Shown piece after piece: positions 28,742 to 42,283 of a stretch of DNA of 42,944 nucleotides; positions within the stretch are counted from its first letter, which is position 1, and each line of letters starts with the position of its first letter. Origin of the DNA: Vicinamibacteria bacterium (GTDB lineage Bacteria > Acidobacteriota > Vicinamibacteria > Fen-336); NCBI GenBank assembly GCA_023701125.1, contig JAMPXO010000031.1:1-42944 (forward strand), read 5' to 3'. A model generated the notes under the pieces. The model was not told the DNA's origin. It saw nothing but the letters and a program-made list of their open reading frames with translations, and did not search any database. A program made the position numbers and the translations under genes.

Positions 28742-29146
28742 ATGGATCGCGAGCGTGCCCTGCGAGCGTGCCTCGAGGCCTTCCCGGAGGTGCGCCTCGC
28801 CGTCCTCTTCGGATCCGAGGCCACGGGAGCGGCGCACGCGCTCAGCGACGTGGATGTGGGTCTGCGGCTGGCCGGCGCCCCATCGCCGACCGCGGCGCTC
28901 GAAGCGGCGCTCGCGCGCGCCGCGGGGCGCGCGGTCGACCTCGTCGTGCTCGACGCGGCGCCTCCGCTGCTGAGGTTCGAGATCGCACGCGACGGACACC
29001 TGCTGGCCGAGCGCGACCCGCATGCCTGGGCGGATTTCAAGGCGCGAGCCATGGTCGACTGGTGGGACTGGGCGCCGACAGCACACAGCCTGAACGCACT
29101 CGCGGCCCGCCGGCTGCGAGAGGAAATCGCACGTGGTCCGGCCTGA
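28742..29146 (+). CDS. mntA: MNT-type minimal nucleotidyltransferase (MntA-like antitoxin)
   Basis: 134-residue protein of the minimal nucleotidyltransferase fold. FGSEATG...SDVDVGL gives the GSX10DXD active site (Gly24, Ser25, Asp36, Asp38) with a third acidic residue at Asp66 (AVDLVVLD). In characterised MntA-HepT pairs this enzyme inactivates the HEPN toxin by adding AMP units to a tyrosine. It overlaps the HEPN gene by 14 nt, the usual arrangement. The active site is intact. Note that the long residue tail after 85 (HAWADFKARAMVDWWDW) is also typical of MntA proteins. Confidence 0.85.
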   Translation: MDRERALRACLEAFPEVRLAVLFGSEATGAAHALSDVDVGLRLAGAPSPTAALEAALARAAGRAVDLVVLDAAPPLLRFEIARDGHLLAERDPHAWADFKARAMVDWWDWAPTAHSLNALAARRLREEIARGPA

Positions 29147-29552
29147 GATCGCCGGCGTGCGCGTCGCCCGCGCGCGAGGCTGGCTGAACGATGCCGAGGC
29201 CCTGCTCGATCGCGACCTCGAGGCCTTTCTCGCGGACCGCCAGGGACGCGACCTCGCGCTGTTCTACCTGTTCCTCGCCATCCAGGAGGCGATCGATCTC
29301 GCGGCGCACTGGGTGGCGGATGCCGGCTGGGCCGCGCCGGACGACGCCGGGTCCTCGTTCGACCTGCTCGCGGAGCGGGGAATCCTCGATCGCGGGACCG
29401 CCGACACGCTGCGAGCGGCCGCCGGCCTCCGCAACCGGATCGCCCACGGCTACGCGCTGCTCGACTACGCCCGCGTGCAGCGCGAGGCCCGCGCCGGCCT
29501 GCCGGCCCTGCGCCTGCTGCTCGAGAAAGTCGCCACCGAAGCCGGCCTCTGA
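29133..29552 (+). CDS. hepT: HEPN-domain ribonuclease toxin (HepT-like)
   Basis: 139-residue helical protein of the HepT/DUF86 family. The RX4HXY motif is Arg100-NRIA-His105-Gly-Tyr107: Arg and His are the catalytic residues for RNA cleavage and the Tyr is the site that MntA AMPylates in studied systems. The start is GTG 29133, with GAGAGGA just upstream inside the mntA gene. Both genes look intact, so this is probably a functional type VII toxin-antitoxin pair; defence or stress roles are inferred from the family only. Confidence 0.87.
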   Translation: MVRPEIAGVRVARARGWLNDAEALLDRDLEAFLADRQGRDLALFYLFLAIQEAIDLAAHWVADAGWAAPDDAGSSFDLLAERGILDRGTADTLRAAAGLRNRIAHGYALLDYARVQREARAGLPALRLLLEKVATEAGL

Positions 29553-29560
29553 GGCGACGC

Positions 29561-30613
29561 ATGTTCGGAACCGCCGCCTACGATCGGGCCGCGCGCGAGC
29601 TGCGGCGGCCCGTGCTCGAGGACACCACGAGCCCGCTGGACCGGGGCGAGCTGCTGCGCCTCGCCACCCTCGCCGCGTCCAGCCACAACACCCAGCCCTG
29701 GAAGTTCGAGCACGAGCCGATGGCGATGCGCGTGCAGCCCGACTTCACGCGACGCTGCCCGATCGTCGACCCCGACGACGGCCACCTCTGGAAGAGCCTC
29801 GGCTGCGCGGCCGAGAACCTCGTCCACGCCGCGGCCGCCCAGGGGCACCGCGCCCGTGTCAGCCTCGACCCGCGTCGAGGCGACGTCGTCGTGGCCTTCG
29901 AGCGCTCGCCGGGCCTCCATGCCACGGAACTCTCGCGCGCGATCCCGCACCGCCAGTGCACGCGCCAGCCGTACGAGACGGGCCGCCTGGAGGCGGACGA
30001 GCTGCGCCAGCTCGAGCAGGTCGGGCGCGGCGAGGGCGTGCGCGTCGCGCTGTTCACCGCGGCCCGCGAGTGCGAGCAGGTGCTCGAATACCTTGCTGCC
30101 GCCAACCAGGCCCAGCTCTCCGATCGCGCTCTCCGCGCAGAGCTGACGGCGTGGATTCGTTTCAACCCGCGCGCGGCGCTGGCGACGGGCGACGGCCTCT
30201 GCGGCCACACCAGCGGCCGGCCGGCGCTGCCCACCGCGCTCGGCCGCCGCCTCGCCCGCTTCGTGCTGACGCCCGCTGCCCAGACGGCGATCGACGCGAG
30301 CCACGTGCGGGCGAGCGCGGGGCTGGCGGTGTTCCTCGCGGCCCGCGATGCGCTGCCGTCGTGGGTCGAGGTCGGCCGCGCCGCCGAGCGCTTCGCGCTG
30401 TGCGCGACGACGCTCGGCATCCGCACCGCGTTCCTGAACCCGGTGATCGAGGTGCGCCCGCTGCGCGCCCAACTCGAGTCGTGGCTCGGCGCTCGCGGCG
30501 AGCACGCGCTGCTGCTGATGCGCTTCGGCTACGGCCGCCCCGCGCCGTTCAGCCTGCGCCGGCCGCTCGCCGCCGTCGTGGTCCGACCCGACGGAGGCCA
30601 CCCGGCGACCTGA
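29561..30613 (+). CDS. Acg-type nitroreductase-family flavoprotein
   Basis: 350-residue protein of the Acg/nitroreductase-like group, flavin-binding proteins whose physiological role is unclear; the mycobacterial Acg protein is thought to sequester FMN. The N-terminus has LATLAASSHNTQPWKFEHEPM, the typical FMN-phosphate and ring-contact block. SLGCAAENLVHAAAAQGH and GRAAERFALCATTLGIRTAFLNPVIEV are the repeated half-domain cores. It begins 8 nt after hepT and may share its transcript, although no functional link is expected. It ends 4 nt from the convergent MMPL gene. Confidence 0.85.
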   Translation: MFGTAAYDRAARELRRPVLEDTTSPLDRGELLRLATLAASSHNTQPWKFEHEPMAMRVQPDFTRRCPIVDPDDGHLWKSLGCAAENLVHAAAAQGHRARVSLDPRRGDVVVAFERSPGLHATELSRAIPHRQCTRQPYETGRLEADELRQLEQVGRGEGVRVALFTAARECEQVLEYLAAANQAQLSDRALRAELTAWIRFNPRAALATGDGLCGHTSGRPALPTALGRRLARFVLTPAAQTAIDASHVRASAGLAVFLAARDALPSWVEVGRAAERFALCATTLGIRTAFLNPVIEVRPLRAQLESWLGARGEHALLLMRFGYGRPAPFSLRRPLAAVVVRPDGGHPAT

Positions 30614-30617
30614 CGAG

Positions 30618-32978
30618 TCAGTCCTCGAGCCGGCGTCTTTCGGCCGGCGTCAGGGCGTCGGCGAGCGTCGGACGCCTTTCGACGAGGTCCAGCGCGTCTG
30701 CCTGGCCGGGCCACCAGTTGTAGCGGCCGGCGAGGACGAGGAGGGCGGGGCCGAGGGCGAGCCGGATCACCGTCGCATCGAGCGCCACCGCCACCGCCAG
30801 GGCGAAGCCGAGCATCTGCACGAGCAGCAGGTCGCCGGCCGCGAAGGCGCCGAAGACCGCCACCATGATCGCGGCGGCGCTGGTGATCACGCCGCCGGTG
30901 TGGGCGAGGCCTTCGACCACGGCCGCCTCGTCGCCGAGCCCGGCGCGCCGCGCCTCGAGCACGCGGGCCACCAGGAACACCTCGTAATCCATGCTGAGCC
31001 CGAACACGATCGCGAACACCAACACGGGCACGGCGGGGAACACGCTGCCGGTGCCGGCGGCGAGTCCGAACAGCCCCGCTCCCGTCCCGTCCTGGAACAC
31101 GATCACCAGCGCCCCGACGGCCGCCGCCACCGAGAGCAGGTTGAGCGCCACGGCCTTGAGCGGCAGCAGGACCGAACGGAACGCGAGTCCCAGCGCCAGC
31201 AGCGTCGCCAGCACCACGCTCGCCACGACCATGGCGAGGCGGCCCGACAGCGCGTCCTCGTAGTCGGCGTTGAAGGCGGCGAGCCCGCCGACCCGCAGCC
31301 GCGCGCCCGCCACGCCCGTGACCCGGGCAGCGTCGAGCCGGCGGAGCTCGCGGACCAGGCGTCCGACTTCGCCGGGGCTGGCGTCCTCACGCGGCACGAG
31401 CCCGAGCAGCATCGCGTCGCCCTCGCTGGCGACGAAGCACTGCTTCACGAACCCCGGCAGCAGGCTCACGTAGGTCGAGTCGGCACCGCGCGGGCCCGCG
31501 ACCGCCCGCAGCGAGCGCACGGCCGCCACTCGCGGTTCGGCGCGGAACTGCCGCTCGAGCCGGCCTGCCGCCGCCCACCCCTCGGCGCCGAGGGCGGTGA
31601 CGGCCTCCGGCAGCTCGAGGACCACCCGCACTTCCTGGACGACAGCCCCGCGCCCGAGCGCCCGCAGGTCGGCGATGCCGGCGGCCGACTCGAGCCTCGC
31701 GGGCAGCCAGTCGCCGCGCGGCAGCTCGACCTCGAGGCGGCGAGCCTGGAGTGCCAGCAGCAGCAACGGCGCTCCCGCCGCCAGCAGCACCCAGCCCGGC
31801 CGGCGCGTCACCGCCCTGCCGTACCGGTGCCACAGCGAATCCCGGCGCTCGTCGCCACGTCCAGGCCCGGTCGCGCGCGACCACGGCGCCGGGCGCAGGC
31901 GGCCGGCGTCGATGCCGGGGCCCACCCAGGCGAGGACGCCCGGCAGCACGACGACGGCCACCACCACCGACACCGAGACCACCAGCAGGCCGCCGACGCC
32001 GAGCGAGCGCAACTCCGCGACCGGGACCAGCAGCAGCCCCACGAAGCCGATGGCGACGGCCGCGCCCGAAATCGCGATCGTCGCGCCCCCGCGGCGGCAG
32101 GCCTGATCCGCGGCCTGGACGCGGTCGAGGCCGGCGGCCTGCGCCTCGCGGAAGCGGCTCACGGTCAGCAGCGCGTAGTCGATGCCGAGGCCCAGGCCGA
32201 GCATCGACACCACGCTCTGCAAGCTCGCAGCGAGCGGCCAGCGGGCGCTGACCAGGACCGCGAGGCCCAGCGCCGCCGTCACCGCCAGACCGCCCGACAG
32301 CAACGGCAGCAGCGCGGCGGCGACGGTGCCGAACCCGGCGAGCAGCAGGAGCAACGTCAGCGGCACCGCGCGGGCCTCTCCTTCGGCCACGGACTCGGCG
32401 CTCGCCTGCCGCAGGTCCAGGTTCAGCGCGGGCTCTCCGGTCACGCGCAGCGTGGCTTGCGGGTGGCGAGCTCGAAGTCGCTCGGCGGCAAGGCCCGTCG
32501 CCGCGCGGAGTCGCGGCACGAGCCGGTCCGCGGGCGTGGCGTCGAGGCCGACGACCACGAAGGTGCCGGGGACGCCTCCCGTGGGGAGGAACAGCGCGTC
32601 GCCGCCGTCGAGATGGGAGTAGGTGCGAGTCACGCCGGGCACCGCGCGCAGGTCGCGCACGAGTTGGACCAGGGCCTCGCGGCCGGCCGCCGTGTCGGGC
32701 CGGGCGACGTCGCGGACGACCACGAGCGCGCTGCGCGCGAAGGGCGACTCGAAGCGGCTCGCGAGCAGGTGATCCACGGCGGCCGACTCGGATCCCTCGA
32801 GGCGCGCCGCAACCTCGAGCGCGCTCTCCGCACGCCGCGCAACTGGCCACAGCGCGAGGCCGCCCACGAGCGCCGCCGGAACCAGCCACCCACGCGCGGC
32901 CACGAGGCGCCCGGCCCAGCCCCTCCGGCGTTCGCCGACGCGCGCCGAGCCTGCGGCGTCGCGGGCCAGCGACTTCAT
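30618..32978 (-). CDS. MMPL/RND-family lipid exporter
   Basis: 786-residue inner-membrane transporter with the two-fold RND layout: one helix, an extracytoplasmic loop (about 55-200), a helix bundle, then the same again. The proton-relay Asp-Tyr pairs are Asp267-Tyr268 (GIDYALL) and Asp664-Tyr665 (SMDYEVFL). The end of the second bundle reads DATVIRLALGPALL...RYNWWPG, the MMPL signature. MMPL proteins typically export lipids or lipid-linked molecules using the proton gradient. It is the last gene of a six-gene operon; its ATG (32978) overlaps the GNAT-like gene stop as ATGA. It is the probable exporter of the product of that pathway. Confidence 0.92.
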   Translation of the reverse strand: MKSLARDAAGSARVGERRRGWAGRLVAARGWLVPAALVGGLALWPVARRAESALEVAARLEGSESAAVDHLLASRFESPFARSALVVVRDVARPDTAAGREALVQLVRDLRAVPGVTRTYSHLDGGDALFLPTGGVPGTFVVVGLDATPADRLVPRLRAATGLAAERLRARHPQATLRVTGEPALNLDLRQASAESVAEGEARAVPLTLLLLLAGFGTVAAALLPLLSGGLAVTAALGLAVLVSARWPLAASLQSVVSMLGLGLGIDYALLTVSRFREAQAAGLDRVQAADQACRRGGATIAISGAAVAIGFVGLLLVPVAELRSLGVGGLLVVSVSVVVAVVVLPGVLAWVGPGIDAGRLRPAPWSRATGPGRGDERRDSLWHRYGRAVTRRPGWVLLAAGAPLLLLALQARRLEVELPRGDWLPARLESAAGIADLRALGRGAVVQEVRVVLELPEAVTALGAEGWAAAGRLERQFRAEPRVAAVRSLRAVAGPRGADSTYVSLLPGFVKQCFVASEGDAMLLGLVPREDASPGEVGRLVRELRRLDAARVTGVAGARLRVGGLAAFNADYEDALSGRLAMVVASVVLATLLALGLAFRSVLLPLKAVALNLLSVAAAVGALVIVFQDGTGAGLFGLAAGTGSVFPAVPVLVFAIVFGLSMDYEVFLVARVLEARRAGLGDEAAVVEGLAHTGGVITSAAAIMVAVFGAFAAGDLLLVQMLGFALAVAVALDATVIRLALGPALLVLAGRYNWWPGQADALDLVERRPTLADALTPAERRRLED

Positions 32979-34096
32979 GCCCGCCACTCGAGGAGCGCGT
33001 ACTCGCGGCGCCGGTCTTCCGCACACGCGCCGTAGTGCCGGCGCATCGGGCTGCCGGCCGCGATCAGCGTCGCCAGGACCGCGGGGTAGCCGCAGCCGGC
33101 CGCGTTGCGCAGCGTGTGGTGGAACAGCGCGCGGGCGACGCCGCTCCGGCGCGCGGCCTCGAAGGGGGTGACGCCGCCCAGGTGCAGCATCAGCCTCCGC
33201 GCGCGCCGTCGCTCGTCGAAGAATCGCAGCCAGGCCCACGGCGAAGTCCGGCCCCGCATCGCGCGCACCGCCGGCGCCAGGTCGGCGAACGCCACCGCGA
33301 AGGCGGCGACGCGGCCGGCTTCGTCGCGGACCAGCGTCGAGCAGCGCGGCTCCAGGGCGCGGCGGGCCGGGCCGAAGAGGGCGCCGAACTCGTCGCGGCC
33401 GATCGGCGTGAAGCCGACGAAACCGGAGAACGAGGCCACGAGTGCGGCGTGCAGGCCGTCCAGGGCCGTCTCGAACGGCTCTTGGTCGAACGGCTCGAAG
33501 CGGTAGCCCCGCGCCAGCAGCGCCCGGAACGCCTCCGCCCCGGGAAGCGACAGTTGCGCGAGGGTCTCGCGGCCCGGCAGCTCGAACGAGTTCCAGGTCT
33601 GGCAGGGGCGGAAGCCGGCGCTCTCCCACAGCTCCGGGTAGTAGGGCTTGTTGTAAGGCTCGCCGGAGAAGGGCTCCCGTTCGAAACCCCGCGTCATCAG
33701 CCGATAGCCGTGCCAGATGTCGAACTGCAGCGGACCCCAGACGCGGGTCAGGCCCTGATCCCGGAGCCACGCGACCGCGGCCGCCAGCACGTCGTTCGCC
33801 GCGGCGGCGTCCGGCGTCGACTCGAACAGGCCGATCGCGCCGACCGGCGTTCCGTCGCGAGCCCGCAGGCCGGGGTGGACCGTGGCCAGGGCGCGGGCCA
33901 CCGCGCGCCCGTTGGCGACGGCGAGGAACCGGCGGTGACGGTGGCCGGGGCGCCCGTAGAACGGGAACGACGGCGCGAGCCACCGGCGCAACTCGCGCTC
34001 GAGTGGCGGGACGAAGGCGCGGTCGCCGCGGTAGATCTCGTACCCGAGGCGCACGAAGGCGTCGGTCGATTCCGGCTCGAAGCCGAAGGCCCTCAC
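32975..34096 (-). CDS. GNAT-like acyltransferase in the lipid operon
   Basis: 373-residue two-part acyltransferase-like protein of the GNAT superfamily. The N-terminal half has FLAVANGRAVARALATVHPG, then the loop AIGLFESTPDAAAANDVLAAAVAWLRDQGLTRVWGPLQFDIWHGYRL; the C-terminal half ends with GVTPFEAARRSGVARALFHHTLRNAAGCGYPAVLATLIAAGSPMRRHYGA. These are family-like strands, but no textbook acetyl-CoA loop is obvious. The start is taken at GTG 34096, which overlaps the dikinase stop as GTGA like the other junctions; an ATG six bases upstream (34102), with GAGAGG before it, is equally possible. In this operon it may acylate the lipid headgroup, as an inference. Confidence 0.82.
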   Translation of the reverse strand: MRAFGFEPESTDAFVRLGYEIYRGDRAFVPPLERELRRWLAPSFPFYGRPGHRHRRFLAVANGRAVARALATVHPGLRARDGTPVGAIGLFESTPDAAAANDVLAAAVAWLRDQGLTRVWGPLQFDIWHGYRLMTRGFEREPFSGEPYNKPYYPELWESAGFRPCQTWNSFELPGRETLAQLSLPGAEAFRALLARGYRFEPFDQEPFETALDGLHAALVASFSGFVGFTPIGRDEFGALFGPARRALEPRCSTLVRDEAGRVAAFAVAFADLAPAVRAMRGRTSPWAWLRFFDERRRARRLMLHLGGVTPFEAARRSGVARALFHHTLRNAAGCGYPAVLATLIAAGSPMRRHYGACAEDRRREYALLEWRA

Positions 34097-36627
34097 GCCC
34101 ATCGGACCTCTCCGCTGCGGCCGTCGAGCGTGAGCCGCGCACCCTCGGGGATCCGCGCGCAGGCGTCGGCAACGCCCACGACGGTCGGTATCCCCAGCTC
34201 GCGCCCGAGGATCGCGGTGTGCGAGAGCAGGCTGCCCCGCTCGGCGACCAGCCCGCCGGCCTGCATCATCAGGAACACCCAGCCCGGGTCGGTCGAGCGG
34301 GCGACCAGCACCTCGCCCGGCGCGACGCGAGCCGTGCGCGGGTCCGCGACGATGCGGGCGACCCCGCTGCCGACGCCCGTCGAGCAGCCGATCCCGCACA
34401 GCGCACCCCGGGGTTCGACCGCCGCGCCGGCGGCCGGCGTCGGTGCCCGCCTGGGGAGACCCGAGGTCTCGATCCGGTCGCCGACCTCCCGCGTCGCGAA
34501 GGCCCGGTACTCGTCCTGTCGCAGCGCGACGAGGGCCGCCAGGCCGCGGGTCACGCCCGTTCCCTCCACGCAGCCGAGCACCTCGTCGACCGTGAGGTGG
34601 AAGACGTCGTGCGGATCGCGCAGCACGCCGCCCGCGTGCAGCTCCTCGCCGAGGCGCGTGAACACGGCGCGGACCAGCCCGTAGAGCCGGGCGCGAGCGA
34701 AGCGCATGTTCTCGCGGTTGCGGATCGCCCGCCGGGCCTGGCGCACGACGAACCCGAGCGCGAGCCGCGGCACCAGGCCGCAACCCGCCAGCGCAGCCTC
34801 GGCGTCGTGGCGGCGCTCGCTCGCCCCGCGTTCCGCGGAACAGGCGTCGCCCTGCTGGCGGCGCAGCAGCGCGACGAGCAGCGCGGGGTCCTGGCGCGGC
34901 GTGCGCGTCTCCAGCTTGAGCTCGAAGGCCCCGCGATCGCCGTAGAGGTCGAGATACGCCTCCAGCTCCAGGTGGAACGCCGCCCAGCGCGGATCGCTCT
35001 CCAGCGCGCGCCAGACGGCCGCGTCGCCGCCGCCGCGCGAGAACAGCGCCGACAGCGCCGGGTCGGCGGAGACCTGGCGGGCCAGGGCCGCGACCGCCCG
35101 CAGCGGCGCCACGCTCTCCATGTCGCCGGCGCCGCACAGCAGGTCGTTGGCCAGCGCGGGTCGGTCCGGGAGGAAGCGCCGGCACAGCGCGAGCAGCCAG
35201 GCGTGGTATCGGATCGCCGCCAGGTCGTTGAACAGGGTCAGGTGCCAGAAGCTGCCGGCCTCCGCCTCCAGGGCGCGGTAGCGCAGGGCGAGGGCCGCCG
35301 CGTCGCCGCCCGCCGGTGCCGCTCCGTGGCGGTCGAGGAAACGGCCGAAGCGCGCGAAGAATCGGCGGCCGAGGCGCCCGACGCCGAGCAGGATCGAGGC
35401 CGCGCGCAGCGCCGCCAGCAGGCGCAGCCCGATGCCGGCCCGCGCGCCCGAGGCCGGCTGCGGGCGCGTGACGCCGATCATCCGGTCCCACGCGCGCCGA
35501 TGGGCGTCGGGATCGGCGAGGTACGTGAACATCTCGTACCAGTCGAGCAGGTTGTAGTAGACGCGCCCTTCCACCAGGCCGATCAGGCTCTTGAAGAGGT
35601 GTGGCCGCCGGGCGAGCGGGTCCAGGAGCGGAAAGAAGTGGCGCGCCAGCTCGCGAAACGCGGTCTCGTACGCCTGTCGCGCGAAGCTGAACGTCAACGG
35701 CAGCGTCAGGCCGGGGTAGCTCTCGACGATGTTCGAGTTGTCCCACACCCGCTGGCTGCGGCCGGCCCCCGTCCCCGTGACGGGGCGCGCCTGCAGCACC
35801 CAGGTCTGCCCCGAGGCCTCGATCGCCCACTCGACGTCCTGCGGTTCGCCGAACGCCCGCTCGATCTTCAGGCCCAGGTCGCGCAGCGCGCGGGCTTGCG
35901 CTTCGCTCAAGGCCGGTGCGGCGAGGCCGGCCGCGGCGGTCACGGTGTCTCCGGAGCGCAAGACGCGGCAGGTGGCGGTCAGCGCATCGCCGCGCACGAC
36001 GCCGTCCCCGCGGCCGGGTGCGGAGACGATCAGCGAGTACGCGGGGTCGTCGAGGTCGCGGGTGAAGAGGACGCCGGCGATCGCGGCGGGCGCCATCTCC
36101 TGGATCACGACGGCCGCCTGCACCTCGCGGACGCCGAGGCCCTTGCGCAGGCGATAGCCGAGCGCCCGCGCCGAGAAGGCCGAGGCCCAGACCCGGGCGA
36201 CCGCGGGGCCGAGCGCGTCGCCGGGCACGTCGAGGGCTGTTTCCATCACGCCCGCGAACGAGTGCGCCGCGGCGTCTTCGCCGACGATCGACGAGCGGAC
36301 GGCGAACGGCCCGCGCAGCCCTGCCCGTTCCAGCGCGCCGCGCAACGCGCCCAGGGTCTCCGCCGGGCAGCCTTCGACGACGATGTGGCGCTCGATCGCC
36401 TCGGCGGCCGCGGCCACCGCCGGGAGGCCGTGGCGCTCGACGCGGCGCAGCGCCTGCCGGATCAGGGGCCGGTCGGCGATCCGCGCTTCGAGCGCCGCCG
36501 TGGTGAGCACGACGAAGCGCGGCACCGCGAAGCCCCACGCGTGGAGTCGGCACAGGTTGGCGCCCTTGCCTCCCAGCAGGCGGACGTCGACGCTGTCGTC
36601 GGGGGCGAGCACCGCCGTCCGCTTCAT
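34093..36627 (-). CDS. PEP synthase-like dikinase (PPDK_N plus swivelling His domain, no PEP barrel)
   Basis: 844-residue protein. Residues about 10-300 are an ATP-grasp domain of the PEP synthase/pyruvate phosphate dikinase type: GGKGANLCRL, PFAVRSSIVGEDAAAHSFAGVMET, QEMAPAAIAGVLFTRD and DVEWAIEASGQTWVLQARPVTG. A long middle region (about 315-730) starts with WDNSNIVESYPGLTLPLTFSF. The C-terminal 110 residues are the phosphohistidine domain, with probable catalytic His803 in LLSHTAILGRELGIPTVVG. There is no PEP/pyruvate barrel. The layout is that of rifampicin phosphotransferase and related enzymes, which pass the beta-phosphate of ATP via histidine to a hydroxyl. A substrate in the lipid pathway is inferred. 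ATG overlaps the UbiA stop. Confidence 0.88.
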   Translation of the reverse strand: MKRTAVLAPDDSVDVRLLGGKGANLCRLHAWGFAVPRFVVLTTAALEARIADRPLIRQALRRVERHGLPAVAAAAEAIERHIVVEGCPAETLGALRGALERAGLRGPFAVRSSIVGEDAAAHSFAGVMETALDVPGDALGPAVARVWASAFSARALGYRLRKGLGVREVQAAVVIQEMAPAAIAGVLFTRDLDDPAYSLIVSAPGRGDGVVRGDALTATCRVLRSGDTVTAAAGLAAPALSEAQARALRDLGLKIERAFGEPQDVEWAIEASGQTWVLQARPVTGTGAGRSQRVWDNSNIVESYPGLTLPLTFSFARQAYETAFRELARHFFPLLDPLARRPHLFKSLIGLVEGRVYYNLLDWYEMFTYLADPDAHRRAWDRMIGVTRPQPASGARAGIGLRLLAALRAASILLGVGRLGRRFFARFGRFLDRHGAAPAGGDAAALALRYRALEAEAGSFWHLTLFNDLAAIRYHAWLLALCRRFLPDRPALANDLLCGAGDMESVAPLRAVAALARQVSADPALSALFSRGGGDAAVWRALESDPRWAAFHLELEAYLDLYGDRGAFELKLETRTPRQDPALLVALLRRQQGDACSAERGASERRHDAEAALAGCGLVPRLALGFVVRQARRAIRNRENMRFARARLYGLVRAVFTRLGEELHAGGVLRDPHDVFHLTVDEVLGCVEGTGVTRGLAALVALRQDEYRAFATREVGDRIETSGLPRRAPTPAAGAAVEPRGALCGIGCSTGVGSGVARIVADPRTARVAPGEVLVARSTDPGWVFLMMQAGGLVAERGSLLSHTAILGRELGIPTVVGVADACARIPEGARLTLDGRSGEVRWA

Positions 36628-37520
36628 GCCAGCGCCCCGCCGACACAGGTGGCGAACACGTGCGCCTCGGCGAACGGCCGCAGGGTCGCGGTCTCGGGTG
36701 CGGGGTGGCGCAGGAAGCGGACGTGAGCGTAAAGCGCGGGGGCCAGGCCCGCGAGCAGCGCCAGCGGCAGGCCGGGACCCACCTCGCCGGCGAGCCACAG
36801 GCCGCACGCCACGGCAGCCGAGGCTCCCTGCACGCCGGCGGCCAGCAGCACGGCCCGCGCCCGGCCGAGGCGGCGCGAGTAGGTGACGTACGCGTCCTCC
36901 TGCTCCGGCGCCCGGATCTTGCGCGCGACCTCCCAGGCGAAGAGGCCGCACCAGAACAGCGCGACCGTCGTGGCCACGGCGGCGGGGCGCAGGGACGAGA
37001 TCCCGTGCTGCGCCGCCGCCAGCAGCGCCAGGTGGAACAGCACGAGGGGGACGAACGGCTGGTGCGTGAAGAGCGTCGTCAGCAGCCGCGGTCGCATGCG
37101 GTCCGGCACGAAGAACCAGCGGAACATCAGCCAGGCGTAGCCGAGCACCAGCGCGGACGAGGCGAGCGCGCCGGCCCACGCATGGGCGAGCAGGAACAGC
37201 GCACTGGTGACGACCAGCAGGCCCGCCACGTCGGCCGCGCGCACTCGACCACTCGGCAGCGGGCGCCCGGGGAAGAGGCGCCGGTCGGTGTCGACGTCCT
37301 TCAGCTCGTCCATCAGGCGCAGGATCAGCATGGCGGCGAAGGCGGCCCAGGCGCCGAGCGCGGTCCACAGTGGGCGCGTCAGCAGGTCGGCCGGATGGCC
37401 GTGAAGCCGGGCGAGCAGCGTGGCGAGGCCCGCGTAGAGCGCCAGCGCCGCCAGCAGCCGCTGCGGCAGCGGGTGCATCTCGGCGAGGTACACGAGCAGG
37501 CGCCCGATCGCCGCGCTCAT
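36624..37520 (-). CDS. UbiA-family intramembrane prenyltransferase
   Basis: 298-residue integral membrane protein of the UbiA superfamily, which transfers an isoprenoid chain from a diphosphate or phosphate to an acceptor. The first Asp-rich motif is DxxxDxxxD at Asp71, Asp75 and Asp79 (with FPGRPLPSGRV right after it); the second motif is the region ARKIRAPEQEDAYVTYSRRLG at about 197-217, where Asp and Glu would bind magnesium. Eight or nine hydrophobic helices are visible. ATG 37520 overlaps the kinase-like gene stop as ATGA, and its own stop overlaps the dikinase start. It is the likely lipid-joining enzyme of the operon; acceptor and prenyl donor are unknown. Confidence 0.9.
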   Translation of the reverse strand: MSAAIGRLLVYLAEMHPLPQRLLAALALYAGLATLLARLHGHPADLLTRPLWTALGAWAAFAAMLILRLMDELKDVDTDRRLFPGRPLPSGRVRAADVAGLLVVTSALFLLAHAWAGALASSALVLGYAWLMFRWFFVPDRMRPRLLTTLFTHQPFVPLVLFHLALLAAAQHGISSLRPAAVATTVALFWCGLFAWEVARKIRAPEQEDAYVTYSRRLGRARAVLLAAGVQGASAAVACGLWLAGEVGPGLPLALLAGLAPALYAHVRFLRHPAPETATLRPFAEAHVFATCVGGALA

Positions 37521-38296
37521 GGCTGTCGCGGGAGTGGCGCTCCGGCTCGATCCTCGCGGGTGTGACGGGTGTGGGCGAGGGCGAGCGCGGCCCCGAGCGT
37601 CAGCAGCCCGAGCGAGAGCGCCGCCGGCTCGGGCGGGCGTCGCCCGACGTCGAGCAGCAGCCCCGCGGTGACGACCGGAATCAGCAGGTTGTCGCTGCCG
37701 GCCGGCGCGACGGCCTCCACCAGGGTGGCCAGCACCGCCGCGTGCAGGGCCCAGAGCGCCGCGGTGAGCGGGTCGACCGCGGCCAACTGCACCAGCGCGG
37801 CGTGGACGCACGCGAAGACGACGAGCGCCATCGCCAGCGAGCCCTCCACGCTGCGGGTGGCGCCGAGAACGCGGTAGTGGAGCGAGCCGCAGGCCTGCCC
37901 GACCAGCGCGGCCGCGGCATCGCCGAGAGCGAGCGCCAGCAGGGCTGGCACGTAGGCCGCGGGATGATCGCCCGCGAAGGCGAACGTGAGCGCCACCGCG
38001 GGGGGGTAGAAGTACGCCCCGAGCCGGACCGGGCCGACGCCGTGCACCGAGCGCAGCCAGCCCCGGCCGCGGCTGACGGCCATCAGCGCGACGTAGCCGG
38101 CGGCCAGCGCGACCACGGGCCACGCGCTCGCGAAGATCCAGGGGAAGGCGGCGGCCAGCAGTCCCGATCCGGCATGGACCCACTTGCGAGTCCACTCGCA
38201 GGGCAGCGCCGAGCCGAGGCGCAGAGCTTCGGCGACGCCCAGGATGGCGGCCATTCCGGCAGCGACCAGCAGCAGGCCCGCCAGGTCACCACTCAT
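37517..38296 (-). CDS. CTP-dependent prenol/diacylglycerol kinase-like membrane protein (phytol kinase/dolichol kinase family)
   Basis: 259-residue integral membrane protein with about seven helices, matching the family of Dgk1, dolichol kinase and phytol kinases. Family marks are EWTRKWVHAGSG (Arg37-Lys38-His41), GDAAAALVGQ at 125-134, TRSVEGSLAM at 147-156 and VEAVAPAGSDNLLIPV at 193-208. Such enzymes phosphorylate a membrane alcohol (polyprenol, phytol or diacylglycerol) with CTP. ATG 38296 overlaps the DUF3419 stop as ATGA. A kinase next to UbiA would logically make the prenyl phosphate for it, as in plant tocopherol synthesis; alternatively it could phosphorylate diacylglycerol used by the BtaA-like enzyme. 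Confidence 0.85.
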   Translation of the reverse strand: MSGDLAGLLLVAAGMAAILGVAEALRLGSALPCEWTRKWVHAGSGLLAAAFPWIFASAWPVVALAAGYVALMAVSRGRGWLRSVHGVGPVRLGAYFYPPAVALTFAFAGDHPAAYVPALLALALGDAAAALVGQACGSLHYRVLGATRSVEGSLAMALVVFACVHAALVQLAAVDPLTAALWALHAAVLATLVEAVAPAGSDNLLIPVVTAGLLLDVGRRPPEPAALSLGLLTLGAALALAHTRHTREDRAGAPLPRQP

Positions 38297-39417
38297 CGCG
38301 CGACCTCGAGCACGAGGGCCCGGTAGAACGGCGCCTGGGCGCGCGCGTGGAGGGCTTGCGCCCGCTCCAGTCGTTCGTCGAGGCAGTGGCCCAGCGCGGC
38401 CGGCCGCCGTCGAGGCGCCAGCAGGTTCCAGTAGGCCACGCGCGCGCCGGGAGCCGCGCTGCGCGCTACCGCCTCGAGCAGCGCGTGGTAGGCCCCGAGG
38501 TCCATGTACTCGGGGACGTCCGACAGGTTGAAGGCGTCGAAGCGGTGCGCGGGCACGGTCGCGAGCACCGCCTCCAGCGAGGCGCGGCACACGCTCACGC
38601 GCCCGAGGCTGGCGCGGATCGCCTCGTGCCACTCCGGGCGCAGGTAGTCGGGCAGCGCCGCGCCGAAGCGCCCGGTGAGGATGTAGGAGAGGTAGGGGTT
38701 GTCGTGCGTCGGCAGCACCGCGAGAGCGTTTCGGGCGCGCTCGAGCAGCGGCCCGCCCACCGCACCGTCGACGTGGCGGAAGAACTCCGGGTCGCGGCCG
38801 AGCCGGCCCAGCGGCCCGCGCGCGAAGAACAGCCGGCACAGCATCCGCCAGGTCCAGGTGTCCCAGACCTCGCGGTGGAACTTCTCGCGGAGCACCGCAT
38901 CGCGGGGCGCGAGCAGCGCCGCGACGGTCGCGCGCGAGTGCGCCACCGGCAGCACCCAGCGCCGGAACAGCCGGAAGTACGCCTCGAGGCGCCCGGCGTG
39001 GAGCACGCCGGTGCGAATGGCCTGCGGGTGGGCGTCCCAGTACCTGCGAGCTTCTGGCCCGAGGCGGGGGCGGAGGGCCGCTGCGAAGCGGCGGGCGCGC
39101 TCGCCCGGCGATTGGTCGCGCGCGCCCAGGAACGCGAGCAGCTCGTCGTGGCCGAGCGCCGCGAAGGCCGCCATCTTCAGCTCGAGCAGTGCGAGCTGGG
39201 CCGGGCTCAGGTCCACGGCCAGGACCTCGGCCGCTCCCCGCGCCAGCAGCGAGAGCGTGTTGTCGCCGGCCGAGGCGATCGACAGGCAACGCGCCCCTCG
39301 CAGCGGCTCGAGCGCGGCGCAGACGACGGCCGCGTCTTCCCAGCAGTTCGTGTAGCGGAGGTGCCGGAAATTCGCACGCGCCTCGATCGGTTCGCCGCCG
39401 GCGGTGTCGCGTCTCAC
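38293..39417 (-). CDS. DUF3419/BtaA-like S-adenosylmethionine 3-amino-3-carboxypropyl transferase
   Basis: 374-residue SAM-dependent protein of the DUF3419 family, related to BtaA, which moves the 3-amino-3-carboxypropyl group of S-adenosylmethionine onto diacylglycerol in betaine-lipid synthesis. The nucleotide-binding loop is SIASAGDNTL at 46-55, followed by acidic Asp69 in LAVDLSPAQ. Further family blocks are YTNCWED near the N-terminus, DNPYLSYILTGRF, LPDYLRPE and FDAFNLSDVPEYM. The start is GTG 39417 with weak upstream signals; no promoter is clear, since the preceding region carries a vapC remnant. It is the first gene of the six-gene operon. No BtaB methyltransferase is present. I am confident of the family, less so of the acceptor. 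Confidence 0.85.
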   Translation of the reverse strand: MRRDTAGGEPIEARANFRHLRYTNCWEDAAVVCAALEPLRGARCLSIASAGDNTLSLLARGAAEVLAVDLSPAQLALLELKMAAFAALGHDELLAFLGARDQSPGERARRFAAALRPRLGPEARRYWDAHPQAIRTGVLHAGRLEAYFRLFRRWVLPVAHSRATVAALLAPRDAVLREKFHREVWDTWTWRMLCRLFFARGPLGRLGRDPEFFRHVDGAVGGPLLERARNALAVLPTHDNPYLSYILTGRFGAALPDYLRPEWHEAIRASLGRVSVCRASLEAVLATVPAHRFDAFNLSDVPEYMDLGAYHALLEAVARSAAPGARVAYWNLLAPRRRPAALGHCLDERLERAQALHARAQAPFYRALVLEVAR

Positions 39418-39505
39418 GACTCCAAGGTCGGCGGCGACACGCCCTCATGGGGGGCGCGGTGGGACGCTTTCCGGAACCGTCACAATCCGTCGACCTTCCC
39501 GGACC

Positions 39506-39613
39506 CGGCGCCTTCTGGACATCGACGACGAGGTCGCCGTGGAGTGGGGTCGGCTGACCGCGCGTGAACCCCTGCCGGTGGTCGATGGATTGCTGGTGGC
39601 CACGTCGGCGGTT
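39506..39613 (+). pseudogene. vapC-type PIN-domain fragment (left copy)
   Basis: A 36-codon fragment encoding LLDIDDEVAVEWGRL then PLPVVDGLLVATSAV, the second-half core of VapC toxins (EVAxxWGRL...LPVxDGLLAATA). There is no start codon of its own, no N-terminal half and no stretch after ATSAV. A similar fragment, in the same orientation, lies at 40978-41160. Positions 39545-39604 and 40990-41049 match at about 52 of 60 bases. The rest of 39418-39696 shows no other gene. Confidence 0.7.
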
Positions 39614-39646
39614 TCGAGGCGAACAGGCCGGGGAGCGCACAGGTGG

Positions 39647-39652
39647 TACGCT
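39647..39652 (+). promoter_or_regulatory. candidate -10 box for the OB/DUF3558-like gene
   Basis: TACGCT about 45 nt before ATG 39697; GGAGGGG at 39689-39695 follows as ribosome binding site. Weak evidence only. Confidence 0.25.
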
Positions 39653-39696
39653 GGGCGTCCGCGGGGAAGGCCAAGCGCCCGGCGCGGCGGAGGGGC

Positions 39697-40968
39697 ATGG
39701 GCATGACCTGCAGGGTTCATCAGTGGTTTCGTGCGAGCGCGCTGGCGCTGGTGCTGGTTCCTCCCGGCGCTCTCGCGGCTGCCGACTCGACGTGGCTCAG
39801 CGCCGACGCACTGCACGCCGAGTTCGAGAAGGACCCGGCAGCCACCGAGGCGAAGTACGCCGGACAGCGCGTGGTGGTGAGCGGTCGCTTCAACCCCACC
39901 TTCCCCAAGACCCAGTTCTCGATCGTCGGTGAGCAGGGCCTGAAGTTCGTGAACTGCGAGGATGCGCCCGCACCGTTGCTGGCCGCGAAGGCACGGATCG
40001 CCGAGGGCGCCCCGGTCGAGGTCGCCGGCACGCTGCGGTTCCGGACGCTGGGCACGCTGCACTTCTTCGACCTCCAGGGCTGCACCCTCGAGAAAGGCGA
40101 TTCCGCCGTCGCGCCCGCCGTCGCGCCCGCCGTCGCGACGACAGCCGTGCCCACGCCGAAAGCGTGCGAGCTCGTCACGCTCGAGGAGTTGCGCGCCAAC
40201 GTCGGCGCTGACGTCCAGCCCGTGGGCGCCAGGGCGCCTGATGGCACAGACGACGATCGCGGCTGTCAGTGGAAGGCGGGGAACGCGGCGTTCGAGCTCT
40301 ACCTGGTCGAGGACGCGGCGAACGTCCCGTCGCGCTTCGAAGCGATGAAGCGGTCGCCGGGAACCGTCCCGCTGTCAGGGATCGGCGACGACGCCTTCTG
40401 GGTCGCAGGCCCGCGCCTGTTGCAGGCCCGCGTGGGACCGTTCCTGATGATCAGCGGCGGATGGGCCGAGGGCATGCCAGGCATCATGGCCGCGCAGACC
40501 ACAGCCCAGGCTGCGGTGACGCGGCTGCAGGGCGTGCTCGCGCGTCGGGCGGGACAGCCGTGGCTCGACGCCTGCACGCTCCTCACGCAGGCGGAGGTGG
40601 ACACGGCGCTCGGCCGCGCCGCCCGAGCGGGCAGCCTCTCCGCCGCACCTGTGGCGGGCACCGCATGCTCGTTCGCGCTCACCGCCGCGGACGCCTCGCC
40701 CCTGGAACAGTTCGCGGCCGCCAGCGTGACGGCGTACCCCCTGCAGGACGGGCTGTTCCCGTCGGTGAAGAACTGGGGCGCCATGCTGGAGGCGGCGGCC
40801 GTCGCGGAGATGCCGGGGGCCCTCTTCTCCGATGCCGCAGGATCCGCGCAGCTCGCCTTCGAGAAGGGCGGCTTCCTCGTCGTCATCGGCACCGCGGCGC
40901 CGGATGCGGCAAAGGCACGGCTGCAGGCGATCGCGCTCGCGAAGCGGGCTGCGCCCCGGGTTCCCTGA
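39697..40968 (+). CDS. secreted protein: OB-fold-like domain plus two DUF3558-like modules
   Basis: 423-residue exported protein; signal peptide ends near residue 27 (GALAAADSTW). Residues about 30-130 look like an OB-fold domain of the tRNA_anti-like kind (YAGQRVVVSGRFNPTFPKTQFSIVGE, VEVAGTLRFRTLGTLHFFDLQGC). A PAVAPAVA linker follows. Then come two similar modules, from KACELVTLEELRANVG and from DACTLLTQAEVDTALG, each with a later Cys (CQWKAG; CSFALT) and a variable C-terminal half; this is the pattern of DUF3558-like lipoproteins. The start could also be ATG 39703. The gene lies between two vapC fragments in direct repeat and shows no link to the lipid operon upstream. Confidence 0.75.
   Translation: MGMTCRVHQWFRASALALVLVPPGALAAADSTWLSADALHAEFEKDPAATEAKYAGQRVVVSGRFNPTFPKTQFSIVGEQGLKFVNCEDAPAPLLAAKARIAEGAPVEVAGTLRFRTLGTLHFFDLQGCTLEKGDSAVAPAVAPAVATTAVPTPKACELVTLEELRANVGADVQPVGARAPDGTDDDRGCQWKAGNAAFELYLVEDAANVPSRFEAMKRSPGTVPLSGIGDDAFWVAGPRLLQARVGPFLMISGGWAEGMPGIMAAQTTAQAAVTRLQGVLARRAGQPWLDACTLLTQAEVDTALGRAARAGSLSAAPVAGTACSFALTAADASPLEQFAAASVTAYPLQDGLFPSVKNWGAMLEAAAVAEMPGALFSDAAGSAQLAFEKGGFLVVIGTAAPDAAKARLQAIALAKRAAPRVP
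40104..40138 (+). repeat. 12-bp tandem repeat in the linker of the OB/DUF3558-like protein
   Basis: GCCGTCGCGCCC repeated almost three times, coding for AVAPAVAPAVA in a low-complexity linker. It may change in copy number but is too short to be a mobile element. Confidence 0.6.
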
Positions 40969-40977
40969 ACCAGTTTC

Positions 40978-41160
40978 GGGGTCGCTCGATGGGGTCGGCT
41001 GAACGCCTGCGAACCCCTGCCGGTGGTCGACGGGTTGCTGGCGGCCACCGCGCTCGTCCACGGGCTGACGCTGGTCACGCGCAACGTAGTGGTAGCGCGG
41101 GCGCGTCATTGGGGCACGGGGCCGAAAGGGCTTGAATTCGTCGCCGTGCCGCCCCACCTT
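40978..41160 (+). pseudogene. vapC-type PIN-domain fragment (right copy)
   Basis: A 61-codon reading frame without a start codon at its left end: VARWGRLNACEPLPVVDGLL, then AATALVHGLTLVTRNV, the classical VapC C-terminal part, ending with a diverged tail (VARARHWG...FVAVPP) in place of the usual DF...NPF end. The N-terminal half with the first acidic residues is missing. The 441 bases from the stop at 40968 to the next gene (41411) hold only this remnant and a stretch (41161-41410) in which I see nothing. Confidence 0.75.
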
Positions 41161-41410
41161 GAGAGCGTCAGGCGAACGATGGTCGCGCTCGAAGGCCCGT
41201 TGCGCGCTGCGCTCTCGTGTGCTCGCAAGGCAGTGAGCCGGCGATCAGGCGCTCCGACCGAGCCTCCCGCACGAGCCTGCCCTGCCCGACGTCAACGCCT
41301 CAGATCAGATCTCGCGGCGGCGACGCCGGCTCGACGCGCTTCTGGGAGGAGATTGACCAAGCGAGAGTTGGAAGGCTGCCGAGGCAATGGGTCTTCCCTG
41401 GGAGGGCAAA

Positions 41411-42283
41411 GTGAGCCTGCTCGACGTCTTTCAGCCTCGGTGGAAGCACTCTGACCCCTCGGTACGCAAGGCTGCGCTGAGCAAGCTCACCGACCAGGCG
41501 CTGCTCGCCGACATTGCCCACACGGACGCGGACTGGGATGTGCGCAAGGCTGCGGTGGCGAGGCTCACGAACCCGGCACTGCTCGCCGACATCGCCAGGT
41601 GCAACAAGAGCGGACACGTGCGCCGGGCCGCGGTGGAGAAGCTCACGGACCAGGCGCTGCTCGCCGATATCGCCAACACGGACGCGGACTGGGATGTGGG
41701 CAAGGCCGCGGTGAAGCAGATCACCGACCAGGCTCAGCTCGCCGGCATCGCCAAGAGGAACAGGCACCCGCAATTGCGCGAGGCCGCGGTGGAGAAGGTC
41801 ACTGACCAGGCGCTGCTCGCCGACATCGCCAAGAGCGACGAGGACGGAGGCGTGCGCCGAGCTGCGGTAGAGAAGGTCACCGACCAAGCGTTGCTCGCCG
41901 ACATCATTGTGCGCTGGACCGTGGTGGAGAAGATCTCGGTCGCCGAAATCGCCGGTATCGCCAGGACGGACAACGACATCGGCGTGCGCTCGGCCGCGGT
42001 AAAGAAGATCACCGACCAGACGCTGCTCGCCGGAATCGCCAACGCAGCGGAGGACCCGGATGCACGCTATGTCGCTGTGAAGAAACTGAGCGACCAGGCT
42101 CTGCTCGCCGACATCGCCAGGACCGACGAGGACCGGGATGTGCGCAAGGCGGCGGTGGAGAAGCTCACCGACCGGGCGTTGCTCGCCGACATCGCCGCGA
42201 CAGACAAGGATGGACACGTGCGCCGGGCCGCGGCTCATTCCCTGGACGACGCGAACGCCGCGGCCCGGGGACGAGGACGGTGA
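41411..42283 (+). CDS. HEAT-like 26-residue repeat protein
   Basis: 290-residue soluble protein made almost entirely of about ten tandem repeats of 26 residues, with a consensus like VRKAAVEKLTDQALLADIA followed by x-T-D-x-D. Each repeat would form a helical hairpin in a superhelical solenoid of HEAT/LRV type. Repeats six and seven (around residues 155-178, IIVRWTVVEKISVAEIAGIA) are shortened and diverged. The start is GTG 41411, since GGGAGGG sits 5-8 nt upstream and VSLLDVFQPRWKHSDPSVR looks like a natural beginning for these proteins; an ATG at 41387 would add eight residues. A protein-binding scaffold is likely. The partner is unknown. Confidence 0.82.
   Translation: MSLLDVFQPRWKHSDPSVRKAALSKLTDQALLADIAHTDADWDVRKAAVARLTNPALLADIARCNKSGHVRRAAVEKLTDQALLADIANTDADWDVGKAAVKQITDQAQLAGIAKRNRHPQLREAAVEKVTDQALLADIAKSDEDGGVRRAAVEKVTDQALLADIIVRWTVVEKISVAEIAGIARTDNDIGVRSAAVKKITDQTLLAGIANAAEDPDARYVAVKKLSDQALLADIARTDEDRDVRKAAVEKLTDRALLADIAATDKDGHVRRAAAHSLDDANAAARGRGR
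41470..42235 (+). repeat. 78-bp tandem repeats within the HEAT-like gene
   Basis: Nucleotide-level tandem repetition with the recurring core CTGCTCGCCGACATCGCC, roughly every 78 bp. The conservation is high enough to allow copy-number change by slippage or recombination. Confidence 0.7.

Follow-up and report, generated by a model that had tools for sequence, protein, structure and literature searches.

Enzymes of the families considered here are known from betaine-lipid synthesis, in which transfer of an aminocarboxypropyl group by BtaA is established (review PMC10491745), and from phytol/prenol salvage, in which VTE5 and VTE6 serve as kinases, with VTE6 acting second (PMC9782597). Relatives of BtaA and VTE5 occur side by side in a six-gene operon at positions 30618-39417 of a 42,944-nucleotide stretch of DNA, hereafter the window, from contig JAMPXO010000031.1 of a Vicinamibacteria bacterium (assembly GCA_023701125.1; phylum Acidobacteriota). 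The window operon is an atypical offshoot of a recurrent gene set, which is found in about 22 bacterial phyla with its order largely preserved. We tentatively read the operon, with slightly less than even confidence, as a membrane-associated pathway for building an amphiphile that bears a 3-amino-3-carboxypropyl (homoserine-type) group derived from S-adenosylmethionine (SAM). The enzyme families are all known already; the gene combination, its breadth and the orphan 3-hydroxy-3-methylglutaryl-CoA (HMG-CoA) reductase (HMGR) that accompanies its fuller versions were not found described in the open literature, which is weak evidence because most subscription journals and all preprints lay outside the scope. 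The initial annotation of this DNA had likewise known of no described pathway with this set.

All six open reading frames lie on the minus strand, and their checked translations and junctions bear out the one-direction operon proposed in that annotation. The genes are joined by five 4-nt overlaps, ATGA at 38293-38296, 37517-37520, 36624-36627 and 32975-32978, and GTGA at 34093-34096.

38293-39417, minus strand: putative DUF3419/BtaA-like SAM-dependent aminocarboxypropyl transferase of a separate, operon-linked clade, GTG start (PF11899, 205 bits, E 2.4e-60)
37517-38296, minus strand: phytol-kinase (VTE5)-like CTP-dependent lipid kinase, short form (CTP motif, profile match, AlphaFold model)
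36624-37520, minus strand: UbiA-superfamily membrane transferase with an altered second Asp motif, E197xxR200K201...E208 (PF01040; best NCBIfam match PRK13592)
34093-36627, minus strand: ATP-grasp and phosphohistidine dikinase of rifampin-phosphotransferase-like architecture (PPDK_N 170 bits, PEP-utilizers 81 bits)
32975-34096, minus strand: tandem GNAT N-acyltransferase, GTG start (AlphaFold and Foldseek; its relative at locus L028 matches PF00583)
30618-32978, minus strand: MMPL/RND-type exporter, accessory in the window lineage (PF03176, 209 bits)

Pfam returned no match for the window kinase-like and GNAT proteins; their identities come from relatives, motifs and structures modelled by AlphaFold. 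Four of the six proteins (UbiA, kinase, MMPL and DUF3419) belong to lipid-acting or membrane families. A scan of 30300-39800 found no sigma-70-like promoter, a negative that says nothing firm, since the promoter type of the host may differ from sigma-70.

The breadth of the gene set was assessed by scanning an alignment of the BtaA-like protein against GTDB species genomes, which confirmed at least 551 relatives; the neighbourhoods of the best 80 were compared. These loci were picked by similarity to the window BtaA-like protein, so that counts apply to its clade rather than to the entire DUF3419 family, and many of the loci are cut by contig ends. Their neighbourhoods define a core of seven families: HMGR, UbiA, dikinase, BtaA-like protein, phytol-kinase-like protein, tandem GNAT and acyl-CoA ligase. 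All seven are present at 35 of the 80 loci; when only the 36 untruncated loci are counted, the full set is found at 25 and at least six families at 30. The exact order HMGR-UbiA-dikinase-BtaA-kinase-GNAT-ligase, on one strand, is shared by 24 loci. Carriers among these relatives fall into about 22 phylum-level groups and include cultured strains, such as Methylomonas sp. SURF-1, Rubritalea profundi, Natronospirillum operosum and Alkalilimnicola ehrlichii AK92, and the co-location of the families in dozens of genomes is far beyond chance. Conservation well outside close relatives, and of gene order across genomes, thus accords with what the initial annotation had expected of a pathway. For each pair of families compared, the distance matrices correlate (rho 0.57-0.86; none of 300 permutations reached the observed value), as expected of a gene set that travels together. 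The arrangement extends to a plasmid of the alphaproteobacterium Roseinatronobacter, which carries UbiA-dikinase-BtaA-kinase-GNAT-acyl-CoA ligase; no relative was found on viral contigs. As a control, 14 more distant DUF3419 loci of the window's phylum were inspected, and all seven families were present only at the best-scoring one (L131). The distribution within that phylum is patchy: a strong DUF3419 match is found in just 16 of the 297 genomes sampled.

Within this distribution the window stands apart, as its operon contains neither HMGR nor the ligase and adds an MMPL exporter. No HMGR was found elsewhere in the window genome (G000; 95% completeness), and the best match to an unlinked operon-type ligase is only an OleC inside an OleABCD-like cluster; for these two reasons the window carries a deep, reduced variant, and the six genes, originally read as a lipid synthesis and export pathway, form a real operon that lacks two core members found elsewhere. 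The OleABCD-like olefin synthesis cluster itself lies at 4784-9231 of L130 (contig C88 of G000). The closest relative of the window genome with the gene is G013, the Acidobacteria metagenome-assembled genome ALSabin.143, whose BtaA-like protein pairs deeply with that of the window in the tree described below. Its operon begins with BtaA-kinase-UbiA-dikinase-GNAT, as in the window, and continues with phosphatidylserine-decarboxylase-like, MMPL and HMG-CoA-reductase-like genes. The phosphatidylserine-decarboxylase-like gene, between GNAT and MMPL (L006, 3870-4775), encodes a protein that could decarboxylate the aminocarboxypropyl group. Apart from the window, the operon was found to include an MMPL gene in just this relative (L006/L014; 62% identity to the window MMPL) and, as an MMPL-like open reading frame recognised by eye, at the gammaproteobacterial locus L042. 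Export is therefore an accessory trait, contrary to the earlier proposal that an MMPL pump is part of the system. The window MMPL falls below the equivalog cut-offs for MmpL3 (233 of 1400 bits) and HpnN (49 of 752 bits).

The HMGR of the full operons is an orphan. Among 34 genomes (32 reached through operon loci, plus G000 and G013), exactly one HMGR is present in 33, HMG-CoA synthase in one and mevalonate-diphosphate decarboxylase in none, and DXP (1-deoxy-D-xylulose 5-phosphate) reductoisomerase of the methylerythritol phosphate (MEP) pathway is present in 32. A role in feeding isoprenoid synthesis was rejected on these counts: because the mevalonate-pathway partners are nearly all missing and the MEP pathway is present, the operon HMGR lies outside the known isoprenoid route. 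Its catalytic residues are kept (Glu, Lys and Asp in 48/48, His in 47/48). The serine of the substrate site equivalent to human Ser684, a contact to the free HMG carboxylate, is replaced by Glu or Asp in all 48. This substitution, as if to bind a positive group such as an amine, together with the presence of reductase, ligase and GNAT among the core families, is what speaks for a sphingolipid-like route, in which the OleC-like ligase would activate the aminocarboxypropyl carboxylate, the HMGR-like enzyme would reduce it to an amino alcohol, GNAT would N-acylate it and the alcohol would be phosphorylated, yielding a ceramide-like lipid made from SAM instead of serine. We regard this route as unlikely: it draws on one substitution plus homology, and both ligase and HMGR are missing from the window variant. 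The second carboxylate contact, which we take to be human Lys735, is ambiguous; the alignment can shift by one residue there and an Arg or Lys adjoins, so that a claim of its loss was dropped.

The dikinase had been called PEP-synthase-like, a label that does not hold. It consists of PPDK_N and PEP-utilizers domains only; Pfam found no third domain, and the chain ends right after PEP-utilizers (residues 769-839 of 844), so that the C-terminal phosphoenolpyruvate (PEP)/pyruvate-binding TIM barrel of PEP synthase is absent. Its nearest solved relatives are 5hv1, 5hv2 and 5fbs (5hv2 and 5fbs matched over both ends), which were deposited as PEP synthase and which we take to be rifampin phosphotransferase. 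The catalytic His803 is present in 47/47 sequences. Against the NCBIfam rifampin phosphotransferase model the protein scores 237 of 999 bits, below the cut-off, and models of the prodigiosin ligases RedH and PigC score about equally. This parity invites the view that the product is a soluble or pigment-like natural product, with the dikinase as a PigC/RedH-like ligase joining a prenylated half to an aminocarboxypropyl half. Such a product seems improbable, as no oxidative, nonribosomal peptide synthetase or polyketide synthase family recurs widely in the neighbourhoods of operon loci, the phylum-level spread is wide for a specialised metabolite, and the kinase, UbiA and MMPL suggest a membrane setting. 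The AlphaFold model of the adjoining GNAT is confident (predicted local distance difference test, pLDDT, 91.6), and Foldseek matches it to the tandem GNAT 7q3a (E 3e-11, probability 1.00).

The kinase carries the motif DxxAxxxGxxxGx8KKTxEG, which we take to be the CTP-binding signature found in kinases of the dolichol/phytol type; D126, G133, G137, E151 and G152 are invariant, and at position 148 the window has Arg where most relatives have Lys. By hhalign its profile strongly matches both a kinase-DUF92 fusion and a cyanobacterial protein of VTE5 type (probability 98.7, E ~1e-16), references that are themselves homology-assigned. The AlphaFold model (pLDDT 91) finds its best PDB match in CDP-diacylglycerol synthase with a Z of 7.7, in the grey zone, and Foldseek returned nothing at E 0.001 or better. 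The UbiA profile matches the window protein (34.5 bits against a cut-off of 34.2) and its relative at L028 (47.5 bits). The first acidic motif, DExKDxxxD, is kept, and the second, usually DxxxD, is replaced by ExxRK...E in 46/46. The UbiA profile thus upholds the family assignment in the initial annotation, but plain prenyl transfer is not assured because the second Asp motif is missing. With a VTE5-like kinase and UbiA in one operon, the genes might represent prenol salvage plus a quinone or tocopherol-like side pathway, with the BtaA-like gene an incidental neighbour. We consider this quite unlikely, since the BtaA-like and dikinase genes are co-inherited as tightly as the others (rho 0.79) and the window genome holds a separate kinase-DUF92 fusion beside UbiA elsewhere. 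That protein, in which a VTE5-like kinase is naturally joined to a DUF92/VTE6-like domain, is encoded at 3270-4634 of L124 (contig C24 of G000) and probably represents prenol salvage in a single chain.

A betaine-lipid origin was rejected on the BtaA-like protein and its neighbours. A quick maximum-likelihood tree places the operon-linked proteins, which come from 22 phylum-level groups, in one cluster where many of the phyla are intermixed, and a long branch with support of 100 separates the canonical BtaA proteins (L138-L144) from it; the Acidobacteriota non-operon proteins L132 and L137 are on very long branches, so that their positions are unsure. The canonical loci, from several Acidobacteriota genomes, have BtaB beside BtaA in 7/7 cases, and the same queries detect BtaB at none of the 80 operon loci nor in the window; the operon is accordingly not one for betaine-lipid synthesis. 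Although the BtaA-like protein belongs to PF11899, a variant of diacylglyceryl-trimethylhomoserine (DGTS) synthesis, in which it would modify diacylglycerol and the other genes would supply or export the lipid, is highly improbable given the missing BtaB, the separate clade and the presence of UbiA, HMGR, ligase and dikinase, for which we know of no role in DGTS synthesis. The homoserine-type lipid headgroup of the initial annotation survives in part: a SAM-derived group placed on a lipid-like acceptor is still the most reasonable reading, and the enzyme is not BtaA proper. No solved structure matched the BtaA-like profile. BtaA-like and GNAT genes are paired without other operon genes in L133 and L134, an association that fits acylation of the transferred amino group and supports the BtaA-like and GNAT steps of the scheme proposed below. 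At L134 (5555-9981), another DUF3419 cluster, inspected by eye and tblastn, the BtaA-like protein is fused behind a methyltransferase-like membrane domain and followed by GNAT and a diaminopimelate-decarboxylase-like gene. A different system is found on Rhizobium plasmid pMK-2 (L012, 1832-8170), where DUF3419 occurs with ketoacyl synthase (KAS) III, an OleD-like reductase, a lactonase-like MBL protein and an F390-synthetase-related ligase.

For the membrane-associated amphiphile pathway that we favour, the most likely product is an N-acylated, aminocarboxypropyl-bearing alkyl or isoprenoid amphiphile; we infer this product, the reactions and their order, while the genomes themselves show the gene set with its order and breadth, the co-inheritance, the retained catalytic residues, the missing BtaB and the orphan HMGR. 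Where all seven genes are present, a carboxylic acid would be activated by the OleC-like ligase, and a thioester would then be reduced, with four electrons, to an alcohol by the HMGR-like enzyme. Phosphorylation of the lipid alcohol would fall to the VTE5-like kinase, and the DUF92-like C-terminal half of its long form may supply a second phosphate. The UbiA-like protein would move an alkyl or prenyl chain onto an acceptor, the BtaA-like enzyme would put the aminocarboxypropyl group on a hydroxyl, the tandem GNAT would acylate the amino group, and the dikinase would phosphorylate a hydroxyl or activate it for joining. The window lineage would have lost or never gained the acid-to-alcohol arm of ligase and HMGR, whose absence means that it must source the alcohol elsewhere, and its MMPL pump is probably for export.

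Several points weigh against this scheme. Aminocarboxypropyl transfer by the operon clade is predicted from homology alone, and the SAM-motif region of the clade reads SAGDN as opposed to SGGCN. The replaced second Asp motif implies that the UbiA donor may not be an ordinary diphosphate, and the closeness to RedH and PigC that the dikinase may join two molecules instead of phosphorylating one. The second half of the long kinase found at most loci is weakly DUF92/VTE6-like (hhalign E 6e-4, probability 28%; PF01940 E 0.008) and is absent from the short window form.

A bolder version of the scheme, possible yet doubtful, is that the operon makes a novel class of membrane lipid in about 22 phylum-level groups, with an N-acylated SAM aminocarboxypropyl backbone that a repurposed HMG-CoA reductase may reduce to an amino alcohol of ceramide type. 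If true, an overlooked biosynthetic pathway would be widespread in cultured methanotrophs, verrucomicrobia, cyanobacteria and haloalkaliphiles, an unassigned lipid or amphiphile could be approached through its genes, and HMG-CoA reductase, of the statin target family, would be working outside the mevalonate pathway. Operon carriers are recognisable from genome sequence, so that lipidomics on existing strains is feasible.

Elsewhere in the window, nucleotidyltransferase (MntA-like) and HepT-like ribonuclease genes stand side by side at 28742-29552 on the plus strand as an ordinary toxin-antitoxin pair. The gene for a HEAT-repeat protein at 41387-42283 (plus strand) contains 78-bp repeats in near-tandem array (41465-41905 and 41992-42210), which points to a recent expansion of the repeats. 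Two short stretches, at 39564-39620 and 41023-41090, encode a similar 'VDGLL.AT' peptide that by eye resembles the tail of a VapC/PIN-type gene; Pfam gave no match for either, and they are possible decayed or duplicated gene fragments.

Compared with known systems, the operon shares with BtaA/BtaB a SAM-dependent enzyme of the DUF3419 family, for which release of methylthioadenosine is expected; it differs in having no BtaB methyltransferase, in its separate clade and in six other conserved partners. With VTE5/VTE6 salvage it shares the VTE5-like kinase profile and CTP motif, and in long forms the weak DUF92/VTE6 likeness, whereas the operon kinase is linked to a BtaA-like protein, a dikinase and an orphan HMGR. 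The dikinase is built like rifampin phosphotransferase (5hv1, 5fbs) and PigC/RedH, with ATP-grasp, a large middle domain, a C-terminal swivelling His domain and no TIM barrel, but forms its own subfamily under all NCBIfam equivalog cut-offs. The reductase of the full operons, though not of the window, resembles class I HMG-CoA reductase (PDB 6hr7, 1dq8) in catalytic residues and overall sequence, and departs from it in the Glu/Asp at the Ser684-equivalent position and in carrier genomes without a mevalonate pathway. The ligase, finally, is OleC/PRK09274-like, as in OleABCD olefin synthesis, while the operon is without OleA, OleB and OleD.

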